A DNA stretch of 64,000 nucleotides from Acidimicrobium ferrooxidans. Its GTDB lineage: Bacteria > Actinomycetota > Geothermincolia > Fen-727 > Anoxymicrobiaceae. Shown piece by piece: positions 2 through 12,474 of this stretch. Under the pieces are notes generated by a model. The model worked only from the letters and a program-made list of their open reading frames with translations, was not told the DNA's origin and made no database searches. Within the stretch, counting starts at the first letter, position 1. Each line of letters begins with the position of its first letter. Location of the stretch: positions 963,190 to 1,027,189 of the forward strand of contig DYIU01000002.1 of NCBI GenBank assembly GCA_020723485.1. The letters run 5' to 3'. The translations under genes and the position numbers were made by a program.

Positions 2-973
2 GGCACCGAGGCCAACAACCTGGCGGTAAAGGGCATCGCCTGGGCCGCTCGCAAGAAGGGAAACCACGTGGTCGTCTCCGCCGTTGAGCACTTCTCGGTT
101 CTGCACGCCGCGAGGACTCTCGAGAAGTTCGGCATGGAGGTGACGGAGGTCCCGGTGGACTCCTACGGCATGGTCGATCCCGAATCGATAAAGGAGGCCA
201 TCACCTCCGACACCGTCCTGGTCTCAGTGATGACGGCGAACGGTGAGATAGGCACGATACAGCCGGTCCAGGAGATAGCGGCGGCAGCCGCTGAAAAGGG
301 CGTAGGATTCCATACGGACGCGGTAGCGGCCGCCGGGTACATCCCGCTGGACGTGAAGACCATGGGCGCCGACGCGGTGTCCATCGCCTCCGACCTCCTT
401 TACGGGCCCAAGGGGGTCGGGGCGCTCTGGGTCAGGAAGGGCAGGCGCCTGATGGCGCTCCTCGACGGGGGCGTCCAGGAGGGAGGGCGCCGGGGAGGTA
501 CCGAGAACGTGCCCGGCATCGTGGGCATGGGCAAGGCCGCCGAGCTGGCCGCCCGCGACCTCGAAACGCGCGCCGAATACCTCCGGGGCATGAGCTCCGA
601 GCTGCTGAAATGGCTGCCCGAGTCCATCCCGCGGCTGAGTGTTACGGGCCACATGGAAAAGCGCCTGCCGTGGAACGCGAGCTTCGTGGTCGAGTTCATC
701 GAGGGCGAGGGCATGCTCCTGTTCCTGGACCAGAAGGGCATTGCGGTGTCCAGCGGGTCGGCCTGCACGTCACGGGCCCTCAAGGGCTCCCACGTGCTCA
801 CCGCCTGCAGCATCCCGGCGGAGATCGCGCAGGGGTCTCTGCTGTTCAGCTTCGGGCTCGACAACAAGCCCGAGGACGTCGACTACGTGATAGAGACACT
901 GCCGCCGATAGTCGAGAGGCTGCGGCAGATGTCACCGCTATACGACAAGTTCCTGAAGCAAGGGGGTGGTTGA
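2..973 (+). CDS. iscS: Cysteine desulfurase homologue (NifS/IscS family), 5'-truncated, PLP lysine missing
   Basis: The frame is already open at base 2 (first residues GTEANNLAVKG, a NifS/IscS hallmark), so the N-terminus lies outside the window. The family takes sulfur from cysteine using PLP and a mobile catalytic Cys. The Cys loop is intact (VSSGSACTSR, Cys codon 764-766), as is the His of VEHFSVL that stacks on PLP. However, the segment normally reading S-H-K-x-Y-G-P-K-G reads SDLLYGPKG, so the Schiff-base Lys is Leu (395-397) and the preceding His is Asp (392-394). The Gln of the HxDxxQ motif is Ala (326-328). A PLP-lysine-less IscS is known from Archaeoglobus fulgidus, so this can be a functional sulfur or cluster partner without desulfurase activity. 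It overlaps the IscU scaffold gene by 8 bases, so the two are translationally coupled. Confidence 0.93.
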   Translation, partial: GTEANNLAVKGIAWAARKKGNHVVVSAVEHFSVLHAARTLEKFGMEVTEVPVDSYGMVDPESIKEAITSDTVLVSVMTANGEIGTIQPVQEIAAAAAEKGVGFHTDAVAAAGYIPLDVKTMGADAVSIASDLLYGPKGVGALWVRKGRRLMALLDGGVQEGGRRGGTENVPGIVGMGKAAELAARDLETRAEYLRGMSSELLKWLPESIPRLSVTGHMEKRLPWNASFVVEFIEGEGMLLFLDQKGIAVSSGSACTSRALKGSHVLTACSIPAEIAQGSLLFSFGLDNKPEDVDYVIETLPPIVERLRQMSPLYDKFLKQGGG

Positions 974-1364
974 GATAGCACAGTACAGCGACACGGTCAT
1001 GGACCATTTCATGAACCCTCGCAACGTCGGCGAGATCGAGAGCGCCGACGGGGTCGGGGAGGTGGGAAACCCGGTCTGCGGCGACATGATGACCTTCTAC
1101 ATCGACGTGGACGAAGACGAGCGCATCAAGGACGTGAAGTTCAAGACGTTCGGATGCGGCGCGGCAATAGCGGTCTCGAGCATGGTGAGCGAAATGGCAA
1201 TGGGCAAGACGCTAGACGAGGCTCTCCAGATCTCCAGGGGAGACGTGGCCGAGCAGCTCGGGGGCCTGCCGGAGAACAAGATGCACTGCTCGAACCTGGG
1301 GGCGGACGCTCTGCACAAGGCGATCGAGGATTACAAGAGCAAGAAAGCCGTGAAGGAGGGATGA
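966..1364 (+). CDS. iscU: IscU/NifU-type Fe-S cluster assembly scaffold
   Basis: About 132 residues, the normal length of a stand-alone IscU. It opens with YSDTVMDHFMNPRNVGE, typical of the family, and carries the three cluster-binding cysteines in context (NPVCGD, FGCGA, MHCSN) plus the conserved Asp next to the first Cys. It assembles [2Fe-2S]/[4Fe-4S] clusters using sulfur from the partner encoded just upstream. The GTG start at 966 overlaps the end of the desulfurase gene; ATG at 999 is the alternative but would cut into the conserved N-terminus. The stop overlaps the next start in an ATGA, so three genes are coupled in a row. Confidence 0.95.
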   Translation: MVEIAQYSDTVMDHFMNPRNVGEIESADGVGEVGNPVCGDMMTFYIDVDEDERIKDVKFKTFGCGAAIAVSSMVSEMAMGKTLDEALQISRGDVAEQLGGLPENKMHCSNLGADALHKAIEDYKSKKAVKEG

Positions 1365-1555
1365 GCGTGGGTGAACCTGACGAGAAGAAAGCCGGAACGT
1401 GCCGCTGTCCCTTCTGCGACGTCGAGGTCGAGCTCGAGGAGGAGTCGGTCCTCTGCGTGGCCTGCAAGACCGTGATAGTGGAGTGCGTGAACTGCGGCTC
1501 ACCGGTGCGGGAGGGCGCCGACAGCTGTTCGAACTGCGGCAAGCCGCCCCGCTAG
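1361..1555 (+). CDS. Small double zinc-ribbon protein in the Fe-S assembly operon
   Basis: A 64-residue protein with eight metal-binding-type cysteines in two ribbons: CPFC with CVAC, then CVNC with CSNC. A ninth Cys sits just before the first ribbon (CRCPFC). The acidic linker VEVELEEES lies inside the first ribbon. The ATG at 1361 overlaps the IscU stop (ATGA) and has a perfect AAGGAGGG ribosome site just upstream. The same segment can be read in a longer frame, but only this start keeps the coupling and avoids overlapping IscU. The position next to the scaffold suggests a role in metal or cluster delivery or in regulation; this is inference. I do not recognise a named family. Confidence 0.8.
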   Translation: MSVGEPDEKKAGTCRCPFCDVEVELEEESVLCVACKTVIVECVNCGSPVREGADSCSNCGKPPR

Positions 1556-1618: not shown

Positions 1619-2095
1619 ATGAGCGAGAAGATGACGGTCATCGTCTTCAGCGATGACCTGGACAGGGCCCTGGCGGCGTTCAACCTGGCCAACACCGGAG
1701 CCTCCATGGGGATGGAGGTGACGATGTTCTTCACCTTCTGGGGCCTCGGGGTCATCAAGAAGGAGAGGGTCGCCAGGGGCGACAAGAGCTTCATGCAGTG
1801 GGCCATGGGCCTCATGAAGCGGGGCAGCGCCAGGCGCCTCAAGATGTCGCAGATGAACATGCTGGGCTTCGGCACGAGCACGATGAAGTCCATGATGAAG
1901 ACCTACCGGATGCCGTCGCTCCAGGAAGGGATTGCCCTCGCGAAGGAGCAGGGTGTGAAGTTCATGGCCTGCACCACCTCGATGGCGCTGATGGGGCTGA
2001 CCAGGGATGACTTCATCGACGAGGTCGACGATGTCGCAGGCGCTGCGACCTACCTCGGAATCGCGTCCGAGGGCAAGGTCAACCTGTTCATTTAG
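1619..2095 (+). CDS. DsrE/DsrF/DrsH-like sulfur-relay family protein
   Basis: About 158 residues starting MSEKMTVIVFSDDLDRALAA, the Rossmann-like opening of the DsrE superfamily, with the family's NTGASMGMEVTMFFTFWG segment. A conserved-position cysteine lies in KFMACTTSM near the C-terminus, where DrsE_2 proteins carry their persulfide Cys. Such proteins are thought to pass sulfane sulfur or sit at the membrane with TusA and rhodanese partners. ATG 1619 follows AGGGGGAG; an upstream GTG/ATG extension from 1571 lacks a good ribosome site. A TusA-like gene follows 110 bases later, which fits a sulfur-relay operon. The TAG stop is part of a repeat-element end (TTTAGGGTCAGACC). Confidence 0.85.
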   Translation: MSEKMTVIVFSDDLDRALAAFNLANTGASMGMEVTMFFTFWGLGVIKKERVARGDKSFMQWAMGLMKRGSARRLKMSQMNMLGFGTSTMKSMMKTYRMPSLQEGIALAKEQGVKFMACTTSMALMGLTRDDFIDEVDDVAGAATYLGIASEGKVNLFI

Positions 2096-2204: not shown

Positions 2205-2435
2205 ATGGATGCGGACAAGACGATTGACTGCGTCGGGTTGTACTGCCCGATGCCGATAGTGAAGACGGCCCAGGCGATGAAGGAGCTCGAGCCCGGGCAG
2301 GTCCTCGAGGTGCTTGCCGATGACGCGGGCATAAAGAGCGACATGCCAGCGTGGTGTGAGAAAACGGGCAACGAATGCGTCTCTATCGATGAAGAGGGGG
2401 ACGAGATAAAGGTCTACGTCCGGAAAACCGGATGA
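2205..2435 (+). CDS. tusA: TusA-like sulfurtransferase
   Basis: A 76-residue SirA/TusA fold protein. The signature CPMPIVK (family pattern CPxPxxxxK-like) lies at residues 14-20 after DCVGLY, giving the persulfide-carrying cysteine. A second Cys lies in PAWCEKTGNEC. TusA proteins relay sulfane sulfur between desulfurases or rhodaneses and acceptors. The gene follows the DsrE-like gene, from which it is separated by a repeat-element arm, and the upstream GGAGGCGAAA gives the ribosome site. The combination of desulfurase homologue, IscU, DsrE-like and TusA points to one sulfur-handling locus. Confidence 0.92.
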   Translation: MDADKTIDCVGLYCPMPIVKTAQAMKELEPGQVLEVLADDAGIKSDMPAWCEKTGNECVSIDEEGDEIKVYVRKTG

Positions 2436-2470: not shown

Positions 2471-2974
2471 TTGGCGGACGAAGCGATCAGTGACGGTCTT
2501 CACCAGGCCTACGAGGGCGAGGCCAAGGCGAGCGTGAGGCTGAAGGTCTACGCCGAGAAGGCTGACAAGGAAGAGTACCCGGGGGTGGCAAAGCTGTTCC
2601 GCGCAATCGCGGAGTCTGAGGCCATCCACGCCCGTAACAACCTCAAGATGCTCGGAGAGGTCAAGGACACTGAGACCAACCTCTCGGACTCCTTCGCGCG
2701 CGAGACCAAGGTCGCGGGGGTCCATTACAGCGATTTCATCGCCAGGGCCGAGGCGGCCGGCGACGAGAACGCCGCGAGGATGTTCACCTGGGCGCGCGAC
2801 GTCGAGGACGTGCACGCGAAGCTCTACGAGAAAGCCCTCGAGCACCTCGTCGCCGAGGAGGAGAATCCCACTTACTTCGTCTGCGACGTCTGTGGGTACG
2901 TCGCAGACGGCCAGGTCCCGGACAAGTGCCCGGTGTGCGGCAGCCCGGCCACCGTGTTCTTCGAGACGCGTTAG
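2471..2974 (+). CDS. Rubrerythrin
   Basis: 167 residues with the two-domain layout of classical rubrerythrin: an N-terminal ferritin-like di-iron domain (Glu residues in AYEGEAKA, AESEAIHARNNLKML and the later helix DVEDVHAKLYEKAL) and a C-terminal rubredoxin-type [Fe(SCys)4] centre made of CDVCG and CPVCG. It reduces hydrogen peroxide at the expense of NADH-linked donors and is typical of anaerobes. The start is TTG 2471, placed about 5 bases after GGAGGTGATGG; no in-frame ATG exists nearby. It stands between the sulfur operon and the kinase gene and may have its own transcript. Confidence 0.93.
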   Translation: MADEAISDGLHQAYEGEAKASVRLKVYAEKADKEEYPGVAKLFRAIAESEAIHARNNLKMLGEVKDTETNLSDSFARETKVAGVHYSDFIARAEAAGDENAARMFTWARDVEDVHAKLYEKALEHLVAEEENPTYFVCDVCGYVADGQVPDKCPVCGSPATVFFETR

Positions 2975-3059: not shown

Positions 3060-4871
3060 ATGGTTGGTAAAGTTCTCAACTCCCGGTACGAGCTCGAGCA
3101 GCTGATCGGCACCGGCGGAATGGCGGACGTCTACATGGCCCGGGACAACCTCCTGGGCCGCACCGTGGCTGTCAAGATACTGCACCCGCAGTACGCCAAG
3201 GACGAGGTTTTCATCGCGCGGTTCCGCCAGGAGGCCCAGGCCGCGGCGAACCTCAACCAGCCGAACATCGTGAACGTCTACGACTGGGGGATAGAGAACA
3301 GCACTTACTACCTGGTCATGGAATACGTCGAGGGCCGCGACCTCAAGGACATCATCCTCCAGGGAGGGCCCCTCCTCCCGGAGCGCGCGGTCGAGATAGC
3401 GATGTCGATATGCCTGGCGCTCCAAGCGGCGCACGCGCAGGGGATAGTCCACCGCGACATAAAGCCACAGAACATCATCGTGACCTACGATAACAAGATA
3501 AAGGTCATGGACTTCGGCATCGCCCGCACGACAGGCGGCTCGGCGATGACGCAGACCGGCACAATAATGGGAACTGCGCAGTACATCAGCCCGGAGCAGG
3601 CCCAGGGCCGCGCCGCCGACCCGCGCTCCGACCTCTACTCCCTTGGTGTGGTCCTCTACGAGATGTTGACCGGCAAGGTCCCGTTCGACGGCGACAACCC
3701 GGTCTCCATAGCCTATAAGCACGTCAGGGAGGACCCTCTTCCTCCGACGATGGTAAACCCCGACATCTCCCCCGGGCTCGAGGCAGTGGTCATGAAGGCC
3801 CTGTCTAAGAACCCGGAGAACCGCTACCAGAGCGCTGTCGAGATGCGCTCCGACCTGGAGCGCTGCCTCGAGGGCGCTCCTGTCTTCGCTACGCCGGTGC
3901 TTCCGGCTGACGAGGCGGCACTCGGGGCGACCCGGGCGTACCCGGTGGCGGCGGGCGCGCCCCCGGCCAAGCGATCGCTCGCCTGGCTGTGGATATCGAT
4001 CATCGTGATAGCCGTCCTGGCCGGAATAGGGGTCGGAGTCTGGGCGATTGCGCGCAACACCGGAGGCGCTACCGTGCCCAGCGTGACCGGCAAATCCGTA
4101 GCGGAGGCCGAGCAGCAGCTCGAGGCTGAGGGCCTGAAGATGAAGGTCGCGAAGACGGTAGTCGACGCGGAGAGGCCCAAGGACACGGTCATCAGCCAGG
4201 ACCCATCCCCCGGCACCAAGATCGACAAGGGCGGCACGGTCGAGGTCGTGGTCAGCAAGGGCCCCAACCTCGGCGAGGTACCCGGAGTCACCGGCAAGAC
4301 CCGGACCGAGGCCCAGGGCATCCTGGAGGCCGCGGGCTTCGAGCTCGGCGACGTAACCGAGGCTTACAGCGCGTCGGTCGAGAAAGGCAAGGTCGCCTCG
4401 CAGCAGCCCGAGGCCGGCACCCAGGTGTCCAGAGGGAGCTCGGTCTCGATCGTCATCAGCAAGGGGCCTGAGATGGTCAACGTCCCCAGCGTGGTGGGCA
4501 TGACCCAGGCGGCGGCCACCGAGAGGCTCGAGGGCTCCGGGCTCGTGGCGCAGGTCGAGACGGAGACCTCCACGACTGTGCCCGAAGGGAACGTCATATC
4601 TCAGAGCCCGAGCGCCGGTCAGAGCGTCGCCAAGGGGTCCAGGGTCACGATAGTGGTCGCGGAGCAGGCGCCCCAGGTGCCGAACGTCATCGGCCAGTTG
4701 AAGGCCGACGCCGAGAACACCCTGGTCAGCGCCGGATTCTCTGTCACAGTCATCAACCAGACGACCGCCGACCCGACAAAGGTCGGCAGGGTTATCAACC
4801 AGGACCCGGCGCCGCTCAGCGAGGCTGCCGCGGGCAGCTCGGTAAAGATTTATGTCGGGGTGGCCCCCTGA
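3060..4871 (+). CDS. pknB: PASTA-domain serine/threonine protein kinase (PknB/StkP type)
   Basis: 603 residues. Kinase domain about 10-275 with the glycine loop GTGGMADV, Lys39 in VAVKIL, catalytic Asp133 in HRDIKPQN and Asp151 in MDFG. A single transmembrane segment at about 306-331 (WISIIVIAVLAGIGVGVW) follows, then four extracellular PASTA repeats, each beginning with a V-P-x-V-x-G type motif and ending near S-K-G-P. These kinases sense muropeptides or lipid II and control growth and cell-wall synthesis in Gram-positive bacteria. No PP2C phosphatase, FtsW or PBP gene is adjacent, unlike the usual actinobacterial and Firmicutes clusters. ATG 3060 has AAGGGA upstream. Confidence 0.96.
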   Translation: MVGKVLNSRYELEQLIGTGGMADVYMARDNLLGRTVAVKILHPQYAKDEVFIARFRQEAQAAANLNQPNIVNVYDWGIENSTYYLVMEYVEGRDLKDIILQGGPLLPERAVEIAMSICLALQAAHAQGIVHRDIKPQNIIVTYDNKIKVMDFGIARTTGGSAMTQTGTIMGTAQYISPEQAQGRAADPRSDLYSLGVVLYEMLTGKVPFDGDNPVSIAYKHVREDPLPPTMVNPDISPGLEAVVMKALSKNPENRYQSAVEMRSDLERCLEGAPVFATPVLPADEAALGATRAYPVAAGAPPAKRSLAWLWISIIVIAVLAGIGVGVWAIARNTGGATVPSVTGKSVAEAEQQLEAEGLKMKVAKTVVDAERPKDTVISQDPSPGTKIDKGGTVEVVVSKGPNLGEVPGVTGKTRTEAQGILEAAGFELGDVTEAYSASVEKGKVASQQPEAGTQVSRGSSVSIVISKGPEMVNVPSVVGMTQAAATERLEGSGLVAQVETETSTTVPEGNVISQSPSAGQSVAKGSRVTIVVAEQAPQVPNVIGQLKADAENTLVSAGFSVTVINQTTADPTKVGRVINQDPAPLSEAAAGSSVKIYVGVAP

Positions 4872-6048: not shown

Positions 6049-7182
6049 ATGAGCATCGAAGAGGGAACTTTTGTGCAGAAATACGACCTTCTCGGTTGTA
6101 TACAGTGCGGCAGGTGCACCGGTGGTTGTCCCGTCACGGTGCGCACCCCGCTCAACGTCCGCCGCTTCGTGTACGACACGGTCGACGATGAGCGCCTCGA
6201 GGAGCTCTCCGAGAACCCGGACATCTGGGACTGCACCACGTGCAACACCTGCGCCATCCGGTGCCCGAAGGGCCTGGAGCCGTTCGAGGTCCTTCTCGGA
6301 CTCAGGGCCATGAGGGCCGAGGAAGGCAACCTCGAACCGACCGCCATAACGGCGCTGGAGAGCATGTTCAACAACGGCAATCCCTGGGGCAAGGCCGCGG
6401 CCAAGCGCCTCGACTGGGCCGAGGGGATCGACAACCTCAAAGTCCTCGAGGAGGGGCAGAAGACCGACGTCCTGCTCCACATCTGCTGCACCGCCGCTTA
6501 CGACCCCAAGATACAGCCGTTCGTCAGGAATCTCGTCAGGGTCCTGGACGCAGCCGGGGTCGACTACGGGCTCATCGGCGAAGAGGAGAAGCACTGCGGC
6601 TCCGAAGCCCGCAGGCTCGGCGAGGAGGGCCTGTTCGAGTACTTCGACGAGGAGAACACCGAGCTCTTCGCCCGCTACGACTTCCAGCGCCTGGTGACCC
6701 TCTCCCCCCATTGCTTCAACTCATTCAAGAACGAGTACACCAACCTGGACATCCCGGTGATGCACTACACCCAGCTCGTCGCGGAGCTCCTCGAGGACGG
6801 AAAGCTCGAGCTCTCCAAGGAAGTGGCATCCAAGGTCGTCTTCCACGACCCATGCTACCTCGGCAAGAAGAACCTGGTCTTCGACGAGCCCCGTTACATC
6901 CTGGGCAAGATACCGGGTGTCGAGACCACCGAGTTCTTCCGCTCGAAGGAGCGAAGCCTCTGCTGCGAGGGCGGCGGCGGAAAGATGTGGGTCGAGTCCG
7001 AGTCCAAGGCGCCCCGCCTGGCCGAGACCAGGGTGGCCGACGCTCACGACCTGGGCGCACAGACCATAGCTGTCGCCTGCCCGTTCTGCTGGCTGACCAT
7101 CGAGGACGCCATAAAGGCCAAGGGCTACGAAGAGGAGATGCAGGTCAAGGACATCCTCGAGCTGCTCGACGAGGCCCTCTGA
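6049..7182 (+). CDS. HdrC-HdrB fusion (HdrD-like Fe-S oxidoreductase)
   Basis: 377 residues. An N-terminal HdrC-like part binds two [4Fe-4S] clusters (CIQCGRCTGGCP at residues 17-28 and CTTCNTCAIRCP). The HdrB-like part has two CCG-type cysteine domains: the first with HICC, KHCGS and SPHC, the second with HDPCYLGKK, CCEGGGGK and ACPFC, as needed for noncubane clusters. Such proteins reduce disulfides or serve as the electron-transfer partner of ETF. The gene opens the eight-gene operon, is followed by etfBA, and probably supplies the HdrBC function otherwise absent from the cluster. ATG 6049 follows GGAGTAGAAC. Confidence 0.9.
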   Translation: MSIEEGTFVQKYDLLGCIQCGRCTGGCPVTVRTPLNVRRFVYDTVDDERLEELSENPDIWDCTTCNTCAIRCPKGLEPFEVLLGLRAMRAEEGNLEPTAITALESMFNNGNPWGKAAAKRLDWAEGIDNLKVLEEGQKTDVLLHICCTAAYDPKIQPFVRNLVRVLDAAGVDYGLIGEEEKHCGSEARRLGEEGLFEYFDEENTELFARYDFQRLVTLSPHCFNSFKNEYTNLDIPVMHYTQLVAELLEDGKLELSKEVASKVVFHDPCYLGKKNLVFDEPRYILGKIPGVETTEFFRSKERSLCCEGGGGKMWVESESKAPRLAETRVADAHDLGAQTIAVACPFCWLTIEDAIKAKGYEEEMQVKDILELLDEAL

Positions 7183-7247
7183 TGAATAGGGAACCAAGAA
7201 GGTATCAGACTGTAAGGTAACTCTAAGAGAAGTGAGGTGAACCGGGT

Positions 7248-8045
7248 ATGAACATTGTGGTCTGCGTAAAGCAGGTGCCGGACACTTCCGACCCCGACAC
7301 CGAGGTCCACATCGACGGGACCGGTAAGGGCGTTGATCAGGGCAAGTTCAGCTTCGTGATCAATGACGCGGACAACTTCGCGGTGGAAGAGGCCATCCTG
7401 CTCAAGGAGAAGCACGGCGGAGAGGTGACCGTTGTAAACATCGGCCCAGAGGCGGCAAACCAGGTGATCAGGATGGCGCTGGCCAAGGGCGGCGACTCCG
7501 CGGTCCGCCTCGATGACGAGAAGTTCGCCTACTCAGACCCCGTCGCGACCGCGCGCCTGCTGGCGTCGGCGCTCAAGGACGTCGAGTACGACCTGGTGAT
7601 GACCGGCTGCCTGGCGACCGACGACGGGTACGGCGCGGTCGGCATAGCGCTGGCGCAGTTGCTGGGAGTGCCCCACGCCGCTTACGCCAAGACGGTCGAA
7701 GTGGTCGACGACAAGAAGCTCAAGGTCGGCCGCGAACTCGAGGGCGGCCTGCTCGAGATGAACGAGATCGAGCTGCCCTGCGTCCTCGCGATACAGACCG
7801 GCGGCAACGAGCCCCGGTACGCCTCGTTCAAGGGCATCCGCGAGGCCTCCAAGAAAGAGATAAAGGTCATGGACCTCGCCGCGACCGGCCTCTCCGAGGA
7901 CCAGGTCGGCGAGGCCGGCTCCGTAGCAGTGATGACGCAGTACTCGGTGCCCGAGGTCGGCGAGCTCGCCGAGATCCTCGAGGGCGACCCCGCCGAGACC
8001 GCCGGGAAGCTTGCCGGCATACTGAAGGAAAAGGGGCTGGTATAA
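7248..8045 (+). CDS. etfB: Electron transfer flavoprotein, beta subunit
   Basis: 265 residues, starting MNIVVCVKQVPDT, a nearly invariant EtfB opening, with the adenine-nucleotide-binding region (VMTGCLATDDGYGAVGIALA) and the C-terminal LPCVLAIQTGGNEPRY signature. With EtfA it forms the FAD-binding heterodimer that takes electrons from acyl-CoA dehydrogenases. GAAGTGAGGTGAACCGGGT precedes the ATG. It sits between the HdrCB fusion and etfA with the etfA start directly after its stop. Whether this ETF bifurcates cannot be read from the sequence by eye. Confidence 0.95.
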   Translation: MNIVVCVKQVPDTSDPDTEVHIDGTGKGVDQGKFSFVINDADNFAVEEAILLKEKHGGEVTVVNIGPEAANQVIRMALAKGGDSAVRLDDEKFAYSDPVATARLLASALKDVEYDLVMTGCLATDDGYGAVGIALAQLLGVPHAAYAKTVEVVDDKKLKVGRELEGGLLEMNEIELPCVLAIQTGGNEPRYASFKGIREASKKEIKVMDLAATGLSEDQVGEAGSVAVMTQYSVPEVGELAEILEGDPAETAGKLAGILKEKGLV

Positions 8046-9008
8046 ATGGGTGACATTCTTGTACTTGCAGAGCACAGGCAGGGCGAGCTGCGCGAGGTCA
8101 CCCTGGAGCTGCTGACCCTTGCCGGCCAGCTGGGCGGCAACGTAACGGCGCTGCTGCTAGGCAGCGGAGTCGACGATTTCGCGAGCAAGATAGCAGGCTT
8201 CGCGGACAAGGTCATGGTGGTCGACGACCCGATGTTCGCCGACTTCAACCAGATGGCCTACCAGGCCGCGCTCGCCGAGATAATCAAGAACGACAAGCCG
8301 GGCCTCGTGCTCATCGGCAACACCGGCCAGGGCGTCGACCTGGTCGGCTCGCTCGCCGTAGAGCTCGACCTCCCCTTCACCACCGACGCTATCGCGGTGG
8401 TCATGGAGGGCGACAAGCCGGTGGTGACCCGCCAGTATTACGGCGGCAAGATAAACGGGACCATCAACTTCAAGGACGCCGAGACCTACGTCATCGGCGT
8501 TCGCGAGGCCGCGGTCCCCGCGGGCGAGGGCGGAAAGTCCGGGGAGGTCGCCAAGGTCGACAACCCGGTGACCGCAGAGATAACCGCCCGGAAGTTCCTG
8601 GAGTACGTAGAGGCCGCGATCGGCGACGTGGACATCACGCAGTCGGCGCTGCTGGTCTCCGTGGGCCGGGGCATCAGGGAAGACAAGAACCTGCCGATGA
8701 TCGAGGAGCTCGCGGCCCTGATGGGCGCGGACATCTCCGGAAGCCGCGCGGTCATAGACGCCGGGTGGCTCCCCGCCGACCGCCAGGTGGGCATCTCGGG
8801 CAAGACCGTGAAGCCCAAGCTCTACCTTGCACTCGGCATCAGCGGCGCGTTCCAGCACGTGACCGGGATAAAGGGCTCCGACTTAGTGGTCGCCATCAAC
8901 AAGGACCCGGACGCCCCGATATTCCAGTACGCGGATTTCGGAATCGTGGATGACCTGCTGAAGGTGGTGCCCGCCCTTATCGACAAGATCAAGGAGACTA
9001 AGGGGTAA
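8046..9008 (+). CDS. etfA: Electron transfer flavoprotein, alpha subunit
   Basis: 320 residues. The C-terminal FAD domain shows the EtfA pattern: [13 protein letters not shown], the SRAVIDAGW segment, and [20 protein letters not shown] followed by [18 protein letters not shown]. The N-terminal domain ends near residue 190. The ATG immediately follows the etfB TAA. The two subunits would carry electrons between an acyl-CoA dehydrogenase (none in the window) and the Hdr-type proteins encoded on either side. Confidence 0.95.
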
Positions 9009-9032
9009 GGGCTCCAAGGAGGACCGGAGTAA

Positions 9033-11066
9033 ATGGTTGATAGTCTTAGACCCAAGATAGGCGTTTACATCTGCCACTGCGGCATCAACATCGGCTCGGT
9101 GGTCGACGTGCCCGCTGTGGTCGAGTACGCCTCGAAGCTGCCGGGGGTCGCGGTATCACGCGAGTACACATACATGTGCTCCGACCCGGGCCAGAACCTG
9201 GTCAAGGAGGACATCGAGAAGGAGGGTCTCAACCGCGTGATCGTGGCCTCCTGCTCGCCCCGCATGCACGAGCCGACGTTCCGCAAGACCCTGAAGGACG
9301 CGGGCCTGAACCCCTACTACCTCGAGATGGCCAACATCCGCGAGCAGTGCTCGTGGGTGCACGAGGACCACGCCGAGGCGACCGAGAAGGCCAAGAAGCT
9401 GGTCGAGGCCGCCGTGGCGAAGGCCCTGCTGCTCGAGGCCCTCGAGGAGAAGGAGGTCGACGTAATCCCGTCGTGCCTGGTCATAGGCGCCGGGATAGCC
9501 GGCATACAGGCCGCGCTCGACATCGCGGACGCCGGGTTCAAGGTGTACGTCGTCGAGAAGACCCCCTCGGTGGGCGGCCACATGGCCCAGCTCGACAAGA
9601 CGTTCCCGACGCTCGACTGCTCGGCATGCATCCTCACGCCGAAGATGGTCGACGTGGCCAACCACCCGAACATCGAGCTCATGACCTACTCACAGCTCGA
9701 GGAGATATCCGGCTACGTGGGCAACTTCAAGGCCAAGATCCGCAAGAAGGCGCGCTACGTCGATTTCGACAGGTGCACCGGCTGCGGGGTCTGCGCCGAG
9801 AACTGCCGCTTGGCAGGCCGGATACCCAACGAGTTCGACGAGCTCATCGGGAACCGTGGGGCTATCTACCTGCCGTTCCCGCAGGCGGTCCCTGCCAAGT
9901 ACACTATCGACCCGGAGCGCTGCCTGCAGCTCTCCAAGGGCAAGTGCGGTAAGGAAGGCCCCGCGTGCGTGGCCGCGTGCGGTCCGGGCTGCATCGACTT
10001 CGAGCAGCAGGACGAGATTGTCGAGATAGAGTGCGGGACCGTCATCGTGGCCACCGGCTACGACGTGTTCCCGATGGAGAAGAAGCCCGAGTACGGCTGG
10101 GCCGAGAACGACAACGTCCTGACCGGCCTCGAGTTCGAGCGCCTCGTGTCGGCATCGGGCCCCACCGGGGGCAAGCCCATCCTCGGCCGCGACAAGAAGG
10201 GTGAGGGCGGCTACGAGCCCAAGAAGGTGGCTTTCATCCACTGCGTCGGCTCCCGCGACAAGTCAGTGGGTAACGAGTACTGCTCGCGCGTCTGCTGCAT
10301 GTACCTGGCGAAGCAGGCCCACCTCATCCGCGACAAGCTGCCCGACGCGGAGATAACCGTCTTCTACATGGACGTGCGCGCGTTCGGCAAAGGCTTCGAG
10401 GAGTTCTACGACAGGGTGCGCCGCGAGGGCGTGCGCTACGTGCGCGGCAACCCGAGCGAAATATTCAAGAAGAGCGCGGACCCTGAGGACCACACCCTCA
10501 TCGTCAAGGTAGAGGATACGCTGACCGGAACTCCTCTGGAGTACGAGTCGGACCTGGTGGTCCTCGGCGTCGGCCTGGAGCCGCGCAGGGACATCAGGGA
10601 GATAATCGACCTCTTCAAGCTCTCGCAGTCCACGGACGGCTTCTTCCTTGAGGCCCACCCCAAGCTGCGCCCGGTGGACACCGCCTCCGACGGCGTGTTC
10701 CTGGCGGGCTGCTGCCAGGGCCCCAAGGACATCCCCGACACCGTCGCCCAGGCCAAGGGCGCCGCTTCGAGCGCGCTCATCCTGATGGCGTACGGAAAGG
10801 TCAAGGTCGAGGCCCAGGTCTCCGTGGTCAACCCGGACGAGTGCCGCGGCTGCGGTTTCTGCGTCGAGGTCTGCCCGTTCACCGCGATCGAGCTGGTCGA
10901 CGAGAACCGCATGGGCAACATCGTCCAGGTGGCGAAGGTGAACGAGGCCCTCTGCAAGGGCTGCGGCAGCTGCGCGGCGGCCTGCCTGTCCGGCGCCATC
11001 CAGCCGAAATCCTTCAAGGATGAACAGATACTGCCACAAATCGCTGTGCTAGGAGTGAAGCCGTAA
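9033..11066 (+). CDS. hdrA: HdrA-like flavin-based bifurcating subunit
   Basis: 677 residues with the HdrA architecture: N-terminal domain ([15 protein letters not shown]) with the HdrA cluster Cys residues, the FAD-binding loop [17 protein letters not shown], the conserved [20 protein letters not shown] and TPKM region, an inserted ferredoxin-like pair ([12 protein letters not shown] and further Cys near 300-330), and a C-terminal 2x[4Fe-4S] domain ([12 protein letters not shown] and [12 protein letters not shown]). All expected cysteines are Cys; no in-frame TGA suggests selenocysteine. HdrA splits or merges electron pairs between NADH, ferredoxin and a high-potential acceptor. It directly precedes mvhD (TAATG overlap). 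Confidence 0.94.
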
Positions 11067-11497
11067 TGAGTGAAGAATTCGAGCCCAACATAGTCGCGTT
11101 CCTGTGCAACTGGTGCTCGTACGCGGGGGCGGACCTGGCGGGGACCTCGAGGACGCATTACCTGCCCAACGTCAAGATAATCAGGGTGATGTGCTCCGGG
11201 CGCGTCAACCCGCTGTTCCTGGTGAACGCCCTTCAGCAGGGAGCGGACGGCGTCCTGATATCCGGTTGCCATCCGGGCGACTGCCACTACCTCGAGGGCA
11301 ACTTTTTCGCCAGGCGCCGCTTCATGCTCATGCGCAAGCTGCTGGAACACGTCGGTGTGGACCCGGCCCGCGTGAACATGAGCTGGGTCTCGGCCTCCGA
11401 GGGCGCCAAGTTCAAGGACGTCGTCGACGAGGTCGTGACCAAGGTCAAGGAAGTGGGTCCGATGGACCAATTCAGACGGAGGCAGATAAATTGGTAG
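11066..11497 (+). CDS. mvhD: MvhD/FlxD-type [2Fe-2S] subunit
   Basis: 143 residues of the FlpD/MvhD family with five conserved cysteines: CNWC at residues 14-17, MCSGR, and GCHPGDCHY. The protein carries electrons from the input module (hydrogenase, formate dehydrogenase or Flx) to HdrA. Here no hydrogenase genes are present and the following genes are Flx-like, which points to NAD(H) as the partner. The start overlaps the hdrA stop (TAATG), and the stop TAG lies inside the TTGGTAG start region of the next gene, so the order is tightly coupled. Confidence 0.93.
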   Translation: MSEEFEPNIVAFLCNWCSYAGADLAGTSRTHYLPNVKIIRVMCSGRVNPLFLVNALQQGADGVLISGCHPGDCHYLEGNFFARRRFMLMRKLLEHVGVDPARVNMSWVSASEGAKFKDVVDEVVTKVKEVGPMDQFRRRQINW

Positions 11498-12474
11498 ACG
11501 AGAAGAAACTCCAGGACAAGGCCAGGGAGACCCTCAGCCGCGACGACGTGCGGAGGCTCATAGGCTGGAAGCGGAGCACCTACGGCTACGAGGCCGCGCC
11601 GGCGGTCCTGACGGACGCTTCCGAGGCGGACCAGCTCATATTCGACCCGACCTGCGTTCAGAACCCGGCCTCCTTCATCTCGCTCGAGGAGAAGAAGCCG
11701 GTCCCGCGCGGGCAGGAGCCCGATACCCGCAAGATAGCGGTGATGGTCAAGGGCTGCGACTCGCGGGCCATCGTCCAGCAGCTGGTCGAAAAGGCCTACA
11801 ACCGGGATGACGTGGTGGTGCTCGGGATACCGTGCATCGGTGTCATCGACAGGCGCAAGGCCGAGAAGCTATTCGGCGAGACCGGCAAGCAGGTCAAGGC
11901 CAAGGTCGACAAGGAGAAGGTGGCGGTGGATATCGGCGGCGACGTAAAGACGGTCGACCGCAAGGACATCCTCATGGACAAGTGCCTGCGCTGCCGGTAC
12001 CCGAACCCGCTGGTGAGCGACTTCCTCCTGGGCGATGAGGTCGAGAAGTGGGCCGACGACGACTTCGCCGACGTCGACGAGTTCGAGAAGATGACCCCCG
12101 AGGAGAAGTGGAAGCACTGGGACGAGCAGCTCTCGAAGTGCATCCGCTGTTACTCGTGCAAGAGCGTCTGCCCGATGTGCTACTGCGTCGAGTGCGTCGT
12201 CACTCAGCAGAAGCCGCAGTGGACCCGCCGGTCGACGGACATAAGTGAGAACGCCGCGTACCACCTCCAGAGGGCGTGGCACCTGGCCGGGCGCTGCATC
12301 GAGTGCATGGAGTGCCAGCGGGTCTGCCCGGTGGACATACCGATAATGGAGCTCAACCGGAAGATGACCAGAGAGGTCAAGGAGATGTTCGACTACGAGC
12401 CGGGAGTGGACGCGGAGGCCGAGCCGCTGCTCGCCAGCTATAACCCGCAGGACCCCGAAGACTACATCATGTAG
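11491..12474 (+). CDS. Flx-type Fe-S subunit (FlxC-like) with FrhB-like N-terminal part
   Basis: About 327 residues from TTG 11491, which overlaps the mvhD stop and has GGAGG 8 bases upstream; the same frame stays open far upstream but only antisense-style noise precedes this point. The N-terminal half (KIAVMVKGCDSRAIVQQL, VVLGIPCIGVIDRR) resembles the F420-hydrogenase beta / FrhB family. Cysteine groups follow: CLRCRYPNP, CIRCYSCKSVCPMCYC with VECV, and CIECMECQRVCPVDIP, giving two or more [4Fe-4S] clusters. It would bridge FlxA and MvhD. The exact FlxB/FlxC name is uncertain. Confidence 0.82.
   Translation: MVDEKKLQDKARETLSRDDVRRLIGWKRSTYGYEAAPAVLTDASEADQLIFDPTCVQNPASFISLEEKKPVPRGQEPDTRKIAVMVKGCDSRAIVQQLVEKAYNRDDVVVLGIPCIGVIDRRKAEKLFGETGKQVKAKVDKEKVAVDIGGDVKTVDRKDILMDKCLRCRYPNPLVSDFLLGDEVEKWADDDFADVDEFEKMTPEEKWKHWDEQLSKCIRCYSCKSVCPMCYCVECVVTQQKPQWTRRSTDISENAAYHLQRAWHLAGRCIECMECQRVCPVDIPIMELNRKMTREVKEMFDYEPGVDAEAEPLLASYNPQDPEDYIM

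Follow-up and report, generated by a model that had tools for sequence, protein, structure and literature searches.

In the textbook route of Fe-S cluster assembly, a scaffold-bound PLP enzyme takes the sulfur from cysteine. The IscS of A. fulgidus (AfIscS) has been reported to lack desulfurase activity; in the structure of its complex with IscU, the [2Fe-2S] cluster on IscU has the loop Cys of AfIscS as a ligand (PMC7585200; PMC9769115). In E. coli, IscU and TusA each bind IscS (PMC2854127, PMC11302665). In this enzyme, Arg354 holds the substrate cysteine by its carboxylate, and the variants K206A and Q183E are both inactive (PMC9978102). In sulfur oxidizers, TusA acts as a sulfur donor (PMC4175335).

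The current work concerns an IscS homologue without the Schiff-base Lys, encoded in an operon with IscU and TusA. Our search of the open-access literature found AfIscS and the IscS1 of Methanosarcina acetivorans, and no description of an operon combining a Lys-less IscS, TusA and IscU.

A desulfurase homologue with altered PLP-site residues

The window, which is the whole stretch of 64,000 nucleotides analysed here, opens within a gene whose frame contains no internal stops (Table 1). The full gene encodes 395 aa and starts 215 bases upstream, at L006:12976 (G000:C5:962975); the window holds its 3' part only. Residues are numbered as in E. coli IscS, and columns were taken from a 133-row alignment that includes this protein.

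Table 1. Coordinates of the Lys-less gene, its pocket and loop codons, and the downstream genes of the operon
Feature	Position	Strand	Basis or remark
Lys-less IscS/NifS homologue, 3' part	2..973	+	Pfam, clade with AfIscS, AF2 model
His104 codon	89..91	+	Retained in 83/83 Lys-less rows
N155 column, Gly	242..244	+	Alignment
Asp180 codon (PLP ring N1)	317..319	+	Retained in 83/83 Lys-less rows
Q183 column, Ala (GCG)	326..328	+	Alignment
S203 column (phosphate contact), Ala	386..388	+	Alignment
H205 column, Asp (GAC)	392..394	+	Alignment
K206 column (Schiff-base Lys), Leu (CTC)	395..397	+	Alignment
Cys328 codon, catalytic loop	764..766	+	Retained in 83/83 Lys-less rows
E334 column, Lys	782..784	+	Lys in 77/83 Lys-less rows
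R354 column (substrate carboxylate), Leu	842..844	+	Arg in 0/83 Lys-less and 43/43 Lys-bearing rows
iscU, 132 aa, GTG start overlapping the stop of the Lys-less gene	966..1364	+	NifU_clost over cut-off
Small double zinc-ribbon protein, start overlapping the iscU stop	1361..1555	+	DZR; seen in other Lys-less loci
DsrE2-like sulfur-trafficking protein	1619..2095	+	Conserved Cys in ACTTS motif
TusA-like sulfur carrier	2205..2435	+	CPMP motif (Cys-Pro-x-Pro)
Rubrerythrin with rubredoxin-like domain	2471..2974	+	Recurs beside Actinomycetota and Chloroflexota Lys-less loci

The protein matches Pfam PF00266 (Aminotran_5) at 9e-53, which places it in the class V aminotransferase fold. Among NCBIfam models, NifS (TIGR03402) scores best and is matched over its full length, TIGR02006 being the other IscS/NifS equivalog. 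The score of 493.9 bits lies under the curated TIGR03402 cut-off of 530.75, which one of the Lys-bearing paralogues from this genome clears with 551.1 bits.

The original prediction had read Leu in place of the Schiff-base Lys, Asp in place of the preceding His and Ala in place of a PLP-contacting Gln. Alignment with E. coli IscS and AfIscS, which it had proposed as a check, confirms all three changes, the codons falling in the K206, H205 and Q183 columns. The list was nevertheless incomplete, as the losses of Arg354, Asn155 and Ser203 had been missed. The catalytic Cys loop (SSGSACTS) and the IscU partner had been considered intact, and both are; the cluster-ligand motifs CGD, GCGAA and HCSNL are all present in IscU. 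Judged by its residues, the window protein lacks both the Schiff-base Lys and the substrate Arg of a PLP-dependent cysteine desulfurase, and the pocket reads as dead. It is very probably not a normal cysteine desulfurase, and it probably has no desulfurase activity.

An AlphaFold2 model built from 48 Lys-less sequences reached pLDDT 91.9 and pTM 0.91, with low pLDDT at the tip of the Cys loop (326-331). Its best PDB matches were the AfIscS entries 4HVK and 4R5F, at a TM-score of 0.97 (target length); IscS/NFS1 structures gave about 0.9 and above, and E. coli IscS 0.92 to 0.93. The best PDB match of the operon IscU was AfIscU, chain C of 4EB5 (4eb5_C). The PDB also holds a series of Lys-bearing desulfurases (9wep to 9wfy) whose variants alter the pocket columns that have also changed in the natural clade. 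The changes in 9wfy include N155R, Q183P, K206L and R354V, and 9wfy and 9wg1 contain an IscU chain too.

Concerted losses in the pocket

Eighty-three Lys-less rows were compared with 43 Lys-bearing IscS/NifS rows over about 400 columns. Lys206 and Arg354 are present in none of the former and in all of the latter. Only five columns, N155, Q183, H205, K206 and R354, were at least 90% conserved in the Lys-bearing rows and kept in less than 25% of the Lys-less rows, and all five are located in the pocket. Because only pocket columns were jointly lost among about 400, the changes cannot be attributed to chance. In E. coli IscS, R354K retains activity, indicating that a conservative swap is tolerated at this position (PMC9978102); the window residue is Leu. 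Cys328, His104, Asp180, S326 and L333 are each found in 83/83 Lys-less rows and T243 in 82/83, while the E334 column, on the mobile Cys loop, holds Lys in 77/83.

These retained residues bear on the possibility that the protein is still a PLP enzyme, with altered chemistry and with the cofactor held non-covalently or on another Lys, for example K334 of the loop. The invariance of His104 and Asp180 is a hint that the pocket may still accommodate a ligand of some kind or PLP bound non-covalently; T243 and K334 are nearly constant, and the AfIscS structure 4EB5 is drawn with PLP (PMC9769115). However, R354 and K206 are absent from all 83 rows, N155, Q183 and H205 are mostly gone, AfIscS has Gln at 334, and the K206A variant of E. 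coli IscS is inactive (PMC9978102). Another Lys at the PLP position, named in the original prediction as counter-evidence, did not appear: no other conserved pocket Lys was found across the Lys-less rows, the sole Lys gained by most of the clade being K334, which lies on the loop and is absent from AfIscS. A PLP enzyme of altered chemistry is therefore considered very improbable.

The absence of catalytic residues could also reflect a pseudogene or a sequencing error. The orthologues in the family, however, have open frames and are 67-80% identical, the Cys loop is invariant, and the operon is kept across phyla, so that the chance of such an artefact or relic is close to nil. Position 206 is Leu or Met in the orthologues of seven other genomes of the family, and Lys is missing from 83/83 rows, which stem from many independent assemblies. 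Conservation in these orthologues and in the whole Lys-less group rules out a pseudogene and, as the original prediction had maintained, a sequencing error. Mean identity among family orthologues is 73% for the Lys-less gene and 70% for the Lys-bearing gene. Such conservation would speak for selection on an altered function over decay.

Distribution and phylogeny of Lys-less IscS

Nearly all of the best 80 relatives of the window gene in a one-genome-per-species collection are Lys-less, among rows that were chosen by similarity to this gene and include many records from metagenome bins. In a maximum-likelihood tree built with the pocket columns left out, all Lys-less rows, AfIscS and one Lys-bearing row (L059) form a single clade, with support of 99/89. 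A constraint placing L059 outside this clade was rejected (p-AU 0.025). Separate losses of the Lys are not needed, the Lys-less rows with the nested L059 being monophyletic.

According to the record labels, the clade includes Actinomycetota, Chloroflexota, Planctomycetota, Nitrospirota, Aminicenantes, Elusimicrobiota, Thermodesulfobacteriota, Deferribacterota, KSB1, WOR-3, Margulisbacteria and Bathyarchaeota. On this sequence evidence, Lys-less IscS is an old and widespread group of more than ten phyla, Bathyarchaeota among them, and not the extension of an archaeal case by a single anaerobic bacterium that had been envisaged at first. AfIscS was aptly chosen as a precedent: it shares the clade, the pocket losses and, at a TM-score of 0.97, the predicted fold.

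Two Nitrospiria rows nested in the clade, L059:4984-6183 and L063:5215-6429, carry H205-K206. They also show R354L, Q183M, T243A and E334K, together with the iscU-tusA setting. By every mark except Lys206 they would be of the Lys-less type, and the substrate Arg would still be missing; the Lys was either regained in them or lost several times elsewhere. In L146 (WOR-3, two copies), tandem Lys-bearing IscS/NifS genes have Q183A with K206 and R354 intact, and this genome additionally encodes a Lys-less gene.

Gene neighbourhoods

Upstream of the Lys-less gene of the window lies a Crp/Fnr-type regulator. Directly after the rubrerythrin gene that ends Table 1, a serine/threonine protein kinase with PASTA repeats is encoded (3060-4871). 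Farther downstream of the sulfur operon, a cluster at 6049-12474 comprises a CCG/4Fe-4S oxidoreductase, ETF beta and alpha, an HdrA-like flavoprotein of 677 aa and an MvhD/FlpD-type delta subunit, and may indicate anaerobic metabolism of the electron-bifurcation type.

Linkage was counted within 1.5 kb on the same strand, in 65 Lys-less loci with enough flank and in 20 other IscS/NifS loci. A tusA gene was nearby in 47/65 Lys-less loci and 0/20 others (Fisher p 2e-9), iscU in 51/65 and 5/20 (p 2e-5), and dsrE2 in 23/65 and 0/20 (p 1e-3); these p-values ignore kinship and overstate independence, as the rows are related by descent, and the Lys-bearing flanks are short. The CP motif is present in 56/56 neighbouring TusA and the CGD motif in 64/64 neighbouring IscU. 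Linkage to tusA as a general trait of IscS is ruled out by its absence from all 20 other IscS/NifS loci.

Gene order varies among the phyla. In Nitrospirota, an Rrf2 regulator is followed by tusA, the Lys-less gene and iscU, the last three adjacent; in Bathyarchaeota, the Lys-less gene stands directly between tusA and iscU, in that order; elsewhere, the Lys-less gene precedes iscU and then tusA. About a third of Lys-less loci, chiefly from Scalindua and some Brocadia, have no nearby tusA. Lys-less genes without nearby iscU or tusA (L039, L045, L049-L051, L055, L056, L062, L077, L083 and L157) come from Scalindua and related Planctomycetota and are often found beside a UvrD-type helicase or thioredoxin gene. 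The L039 genome has two different Lys-less paralogues.

Desulfurases elsewhere in the genomes

A second, complete desulfurase, for which the original prediction had advised a search, does exist. The window's genome encodes two intact Lys-bearing IscS/NifS, a SufS-like gene and a SufB/D-type gene, and the two intact copies rule out the Lys-less gene as its sole desulfurase. They are located at L008:5643-7040 and L007:4736-6655; the former adjoins mnmA, cysE and a cysteine-synthase-like gene and has no adjacent iscU. No IscU other than that of the operon was found in this genome, which is 95% complete. A single IscU likewise adjoins the Lys-less gene in four further genomes of the family and in those of L033, L065 (a whole chromosome) and L071. 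Of 17 genomes that were checked and have a Lys-less gene, 16 also encode a Lys-bearing IscS/NifS, the exception being a Bathyarchaeota assembly of 1.7 Mb.

These genes raise the possibility of a distribution hub, in which Lys-bearing desulfurases would load TusA or Cys328 and the Lys-less protein would supply not only IscU but also tRNA thiolation or cofactors, with cysteine as the ultimate source. The Lys-bearing IscS/NifS of these 16 genomes and the one that adjoins mnmA in the window's genome are consistent with it. The Lys-bearing genes are, however, unlinked to the operon, and genes of tRNA or cofactor thiolation do not recur in Lys-less loci, which leaves such a hub distinctly unlikely.

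Proposed function and source of sulfur

E. coli IscS binds IscU and TusA, and therefore a homologue that has lost the chemistry, with its loop Cys and its IscU-docking end still in place, could relay TusA-borne sulfur to IscU. The Lys-less protein would be a pseudo-desulfurase, an IscS/NifS fold whose mobile loop with Cys328 and whose C-terminus for docking IscU are preserved, and whose pocket can no longer form the Schiff base with PLP or bind cysteine. It would serve as the dedicated partner of the adjacently encoded IscU, with which it most probably pairs, and most likely as a platform docking both TusA and IscU; complexes with these partners are probably formed. TusA would carry sulfane sulfur, perhaps loaded through DsrE2, and this sulfur may move from TusA to Cys328 of the loop and on to IscU. 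In an alternative step, Cys328 could ligate the cluster for a time, as the loop Cys does in A. fulgidus. IscU would thus receive its sulfur without its partner desulfurating cysteine directly; very probably, the scaffold's own partner cannot take sulfur from cysteine.

A relay of this kind, with a non-catalytic IscS docking IscU and passing on sulfane sulfur from TusA/DsrE2, is our preferred explanation, with a somewhat better than even chance of being correct. The flow from TusA to IscU is only its working hypothesis. Linkage has no direction, and TusA could instead be loaded by Lys-bearing desulfurases or be the acceptor. The relay is also opposed by the third of Lys-less loci that have no nearby tusA, by the invariance of His104 and Asp180, and by the Lys206 of L059 and L063.

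Alternatively, the protein may act as a partner of the A. fulgidus type, docking IscU and lending its loop Cys while free sulfide enters directly, with TusA/DsrE2 as a separate, co-regulated route. AfIscS is reportedly inactive and lends a Cys ligand to the [2Fe-2S] cluster of IscU (PMC7585200; PMC9769115), IscU of anaerobic E. coli can be fed by H2S without IscS (PMC13015791), and the 4EB5 complex is the best or near-best match for both window proteins. Direct entry of sulfide gives no reason, however, for tusA recurring more consistently than any other additional neighbour, across more than ten phyla and in varied gene orders, and we consider this alternative rather unlikely. External sulfide, as first proposed, stays a possible source; it is not the sole possible one, because the conserved TusA/DsrE2 neighbours point to protein-bound sulfane sulfur.

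Extended to the whole clade, the relay would amount to a widespread ISC variant of anaerobes, bacterial and archaeal, in which a dead IscS passes TusA/DsrE2 sulfane sulfur to IscU, no desulfurase serves the scaffold, and TusA works in the direction opposite to that in E. coli. This broader claim is tentative, its chance falling a little short of even. The data suggest that many anaerobes load IscU with sulfur that is not directly derived from cysteine. If many anaerobes have a single IscU whose partner, encoded beside TusA, is a dead desulfurase, another entry of sulfur would be in use; the isolated observation in A. fulgidus would become a general pathway, and one that could bear on how early, sulfide-rich life made its clusters. 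Annotation pipelines may be labelling many non-enzymes as cysteine desulfurase. The purpose of AfIscS-type proteins would become testable with three small proteins.

Comparison with known systems

Archaeoglobus-type IscS is the nearest relative in structure (PDB 4EB5, 4EB7 and 4HVK, and the D199K mutant 4R5F). AfIscS and the window protein belong to one clade (99/89), are 48-50% identical, and share the missing Schiff-base Lys, Q183A, R354L, a residue other than His at 205, the Cys loop and the IscU partner. They differ at position 206 (Leu in the window protein, Asp in AfIscS) and at 334 (Lys and Gln, respectively), and N155 and S203 are kept by AfIscS but lost in the window protein. Unlike AfIscS, the window protein is bacterial and is encoded in an operon with TusA, DsrE2, a zinc ribbon and rubrerythrin. 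In A. fulgidus, a gene annotated as a sulfur carrier may lie near iscS2.

The IscS1 of M. acetivorans (MA0808) resembles the window protein in lacking the essential Lys and in adjoining iscU, and four unknown neighbours have been described (PMC7585200); this likeness was drawn from the published description. The tusA-dsrE2 clusters of the sulfur oxidizers Metallosphaera and Allochromatium also encode TusA together with DsrE2-family proteins; however, they are tied to Hdr-like or Dsr energy metabolism, and the cluster of the window to an IscS homologue and IscU. The E. coli complex of IscS, IscU and TusA (PDB 3LVL, 3LVJ and 3LVM) has the same fold and the same partner families, IscU and TusA. 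E. coli IscS, however, is an active PLP cysteine desulfurase that donates sulfur to TusA, whereas the pocket of the window protein appears dead, and sulfur would thus need another route than in E. coli.
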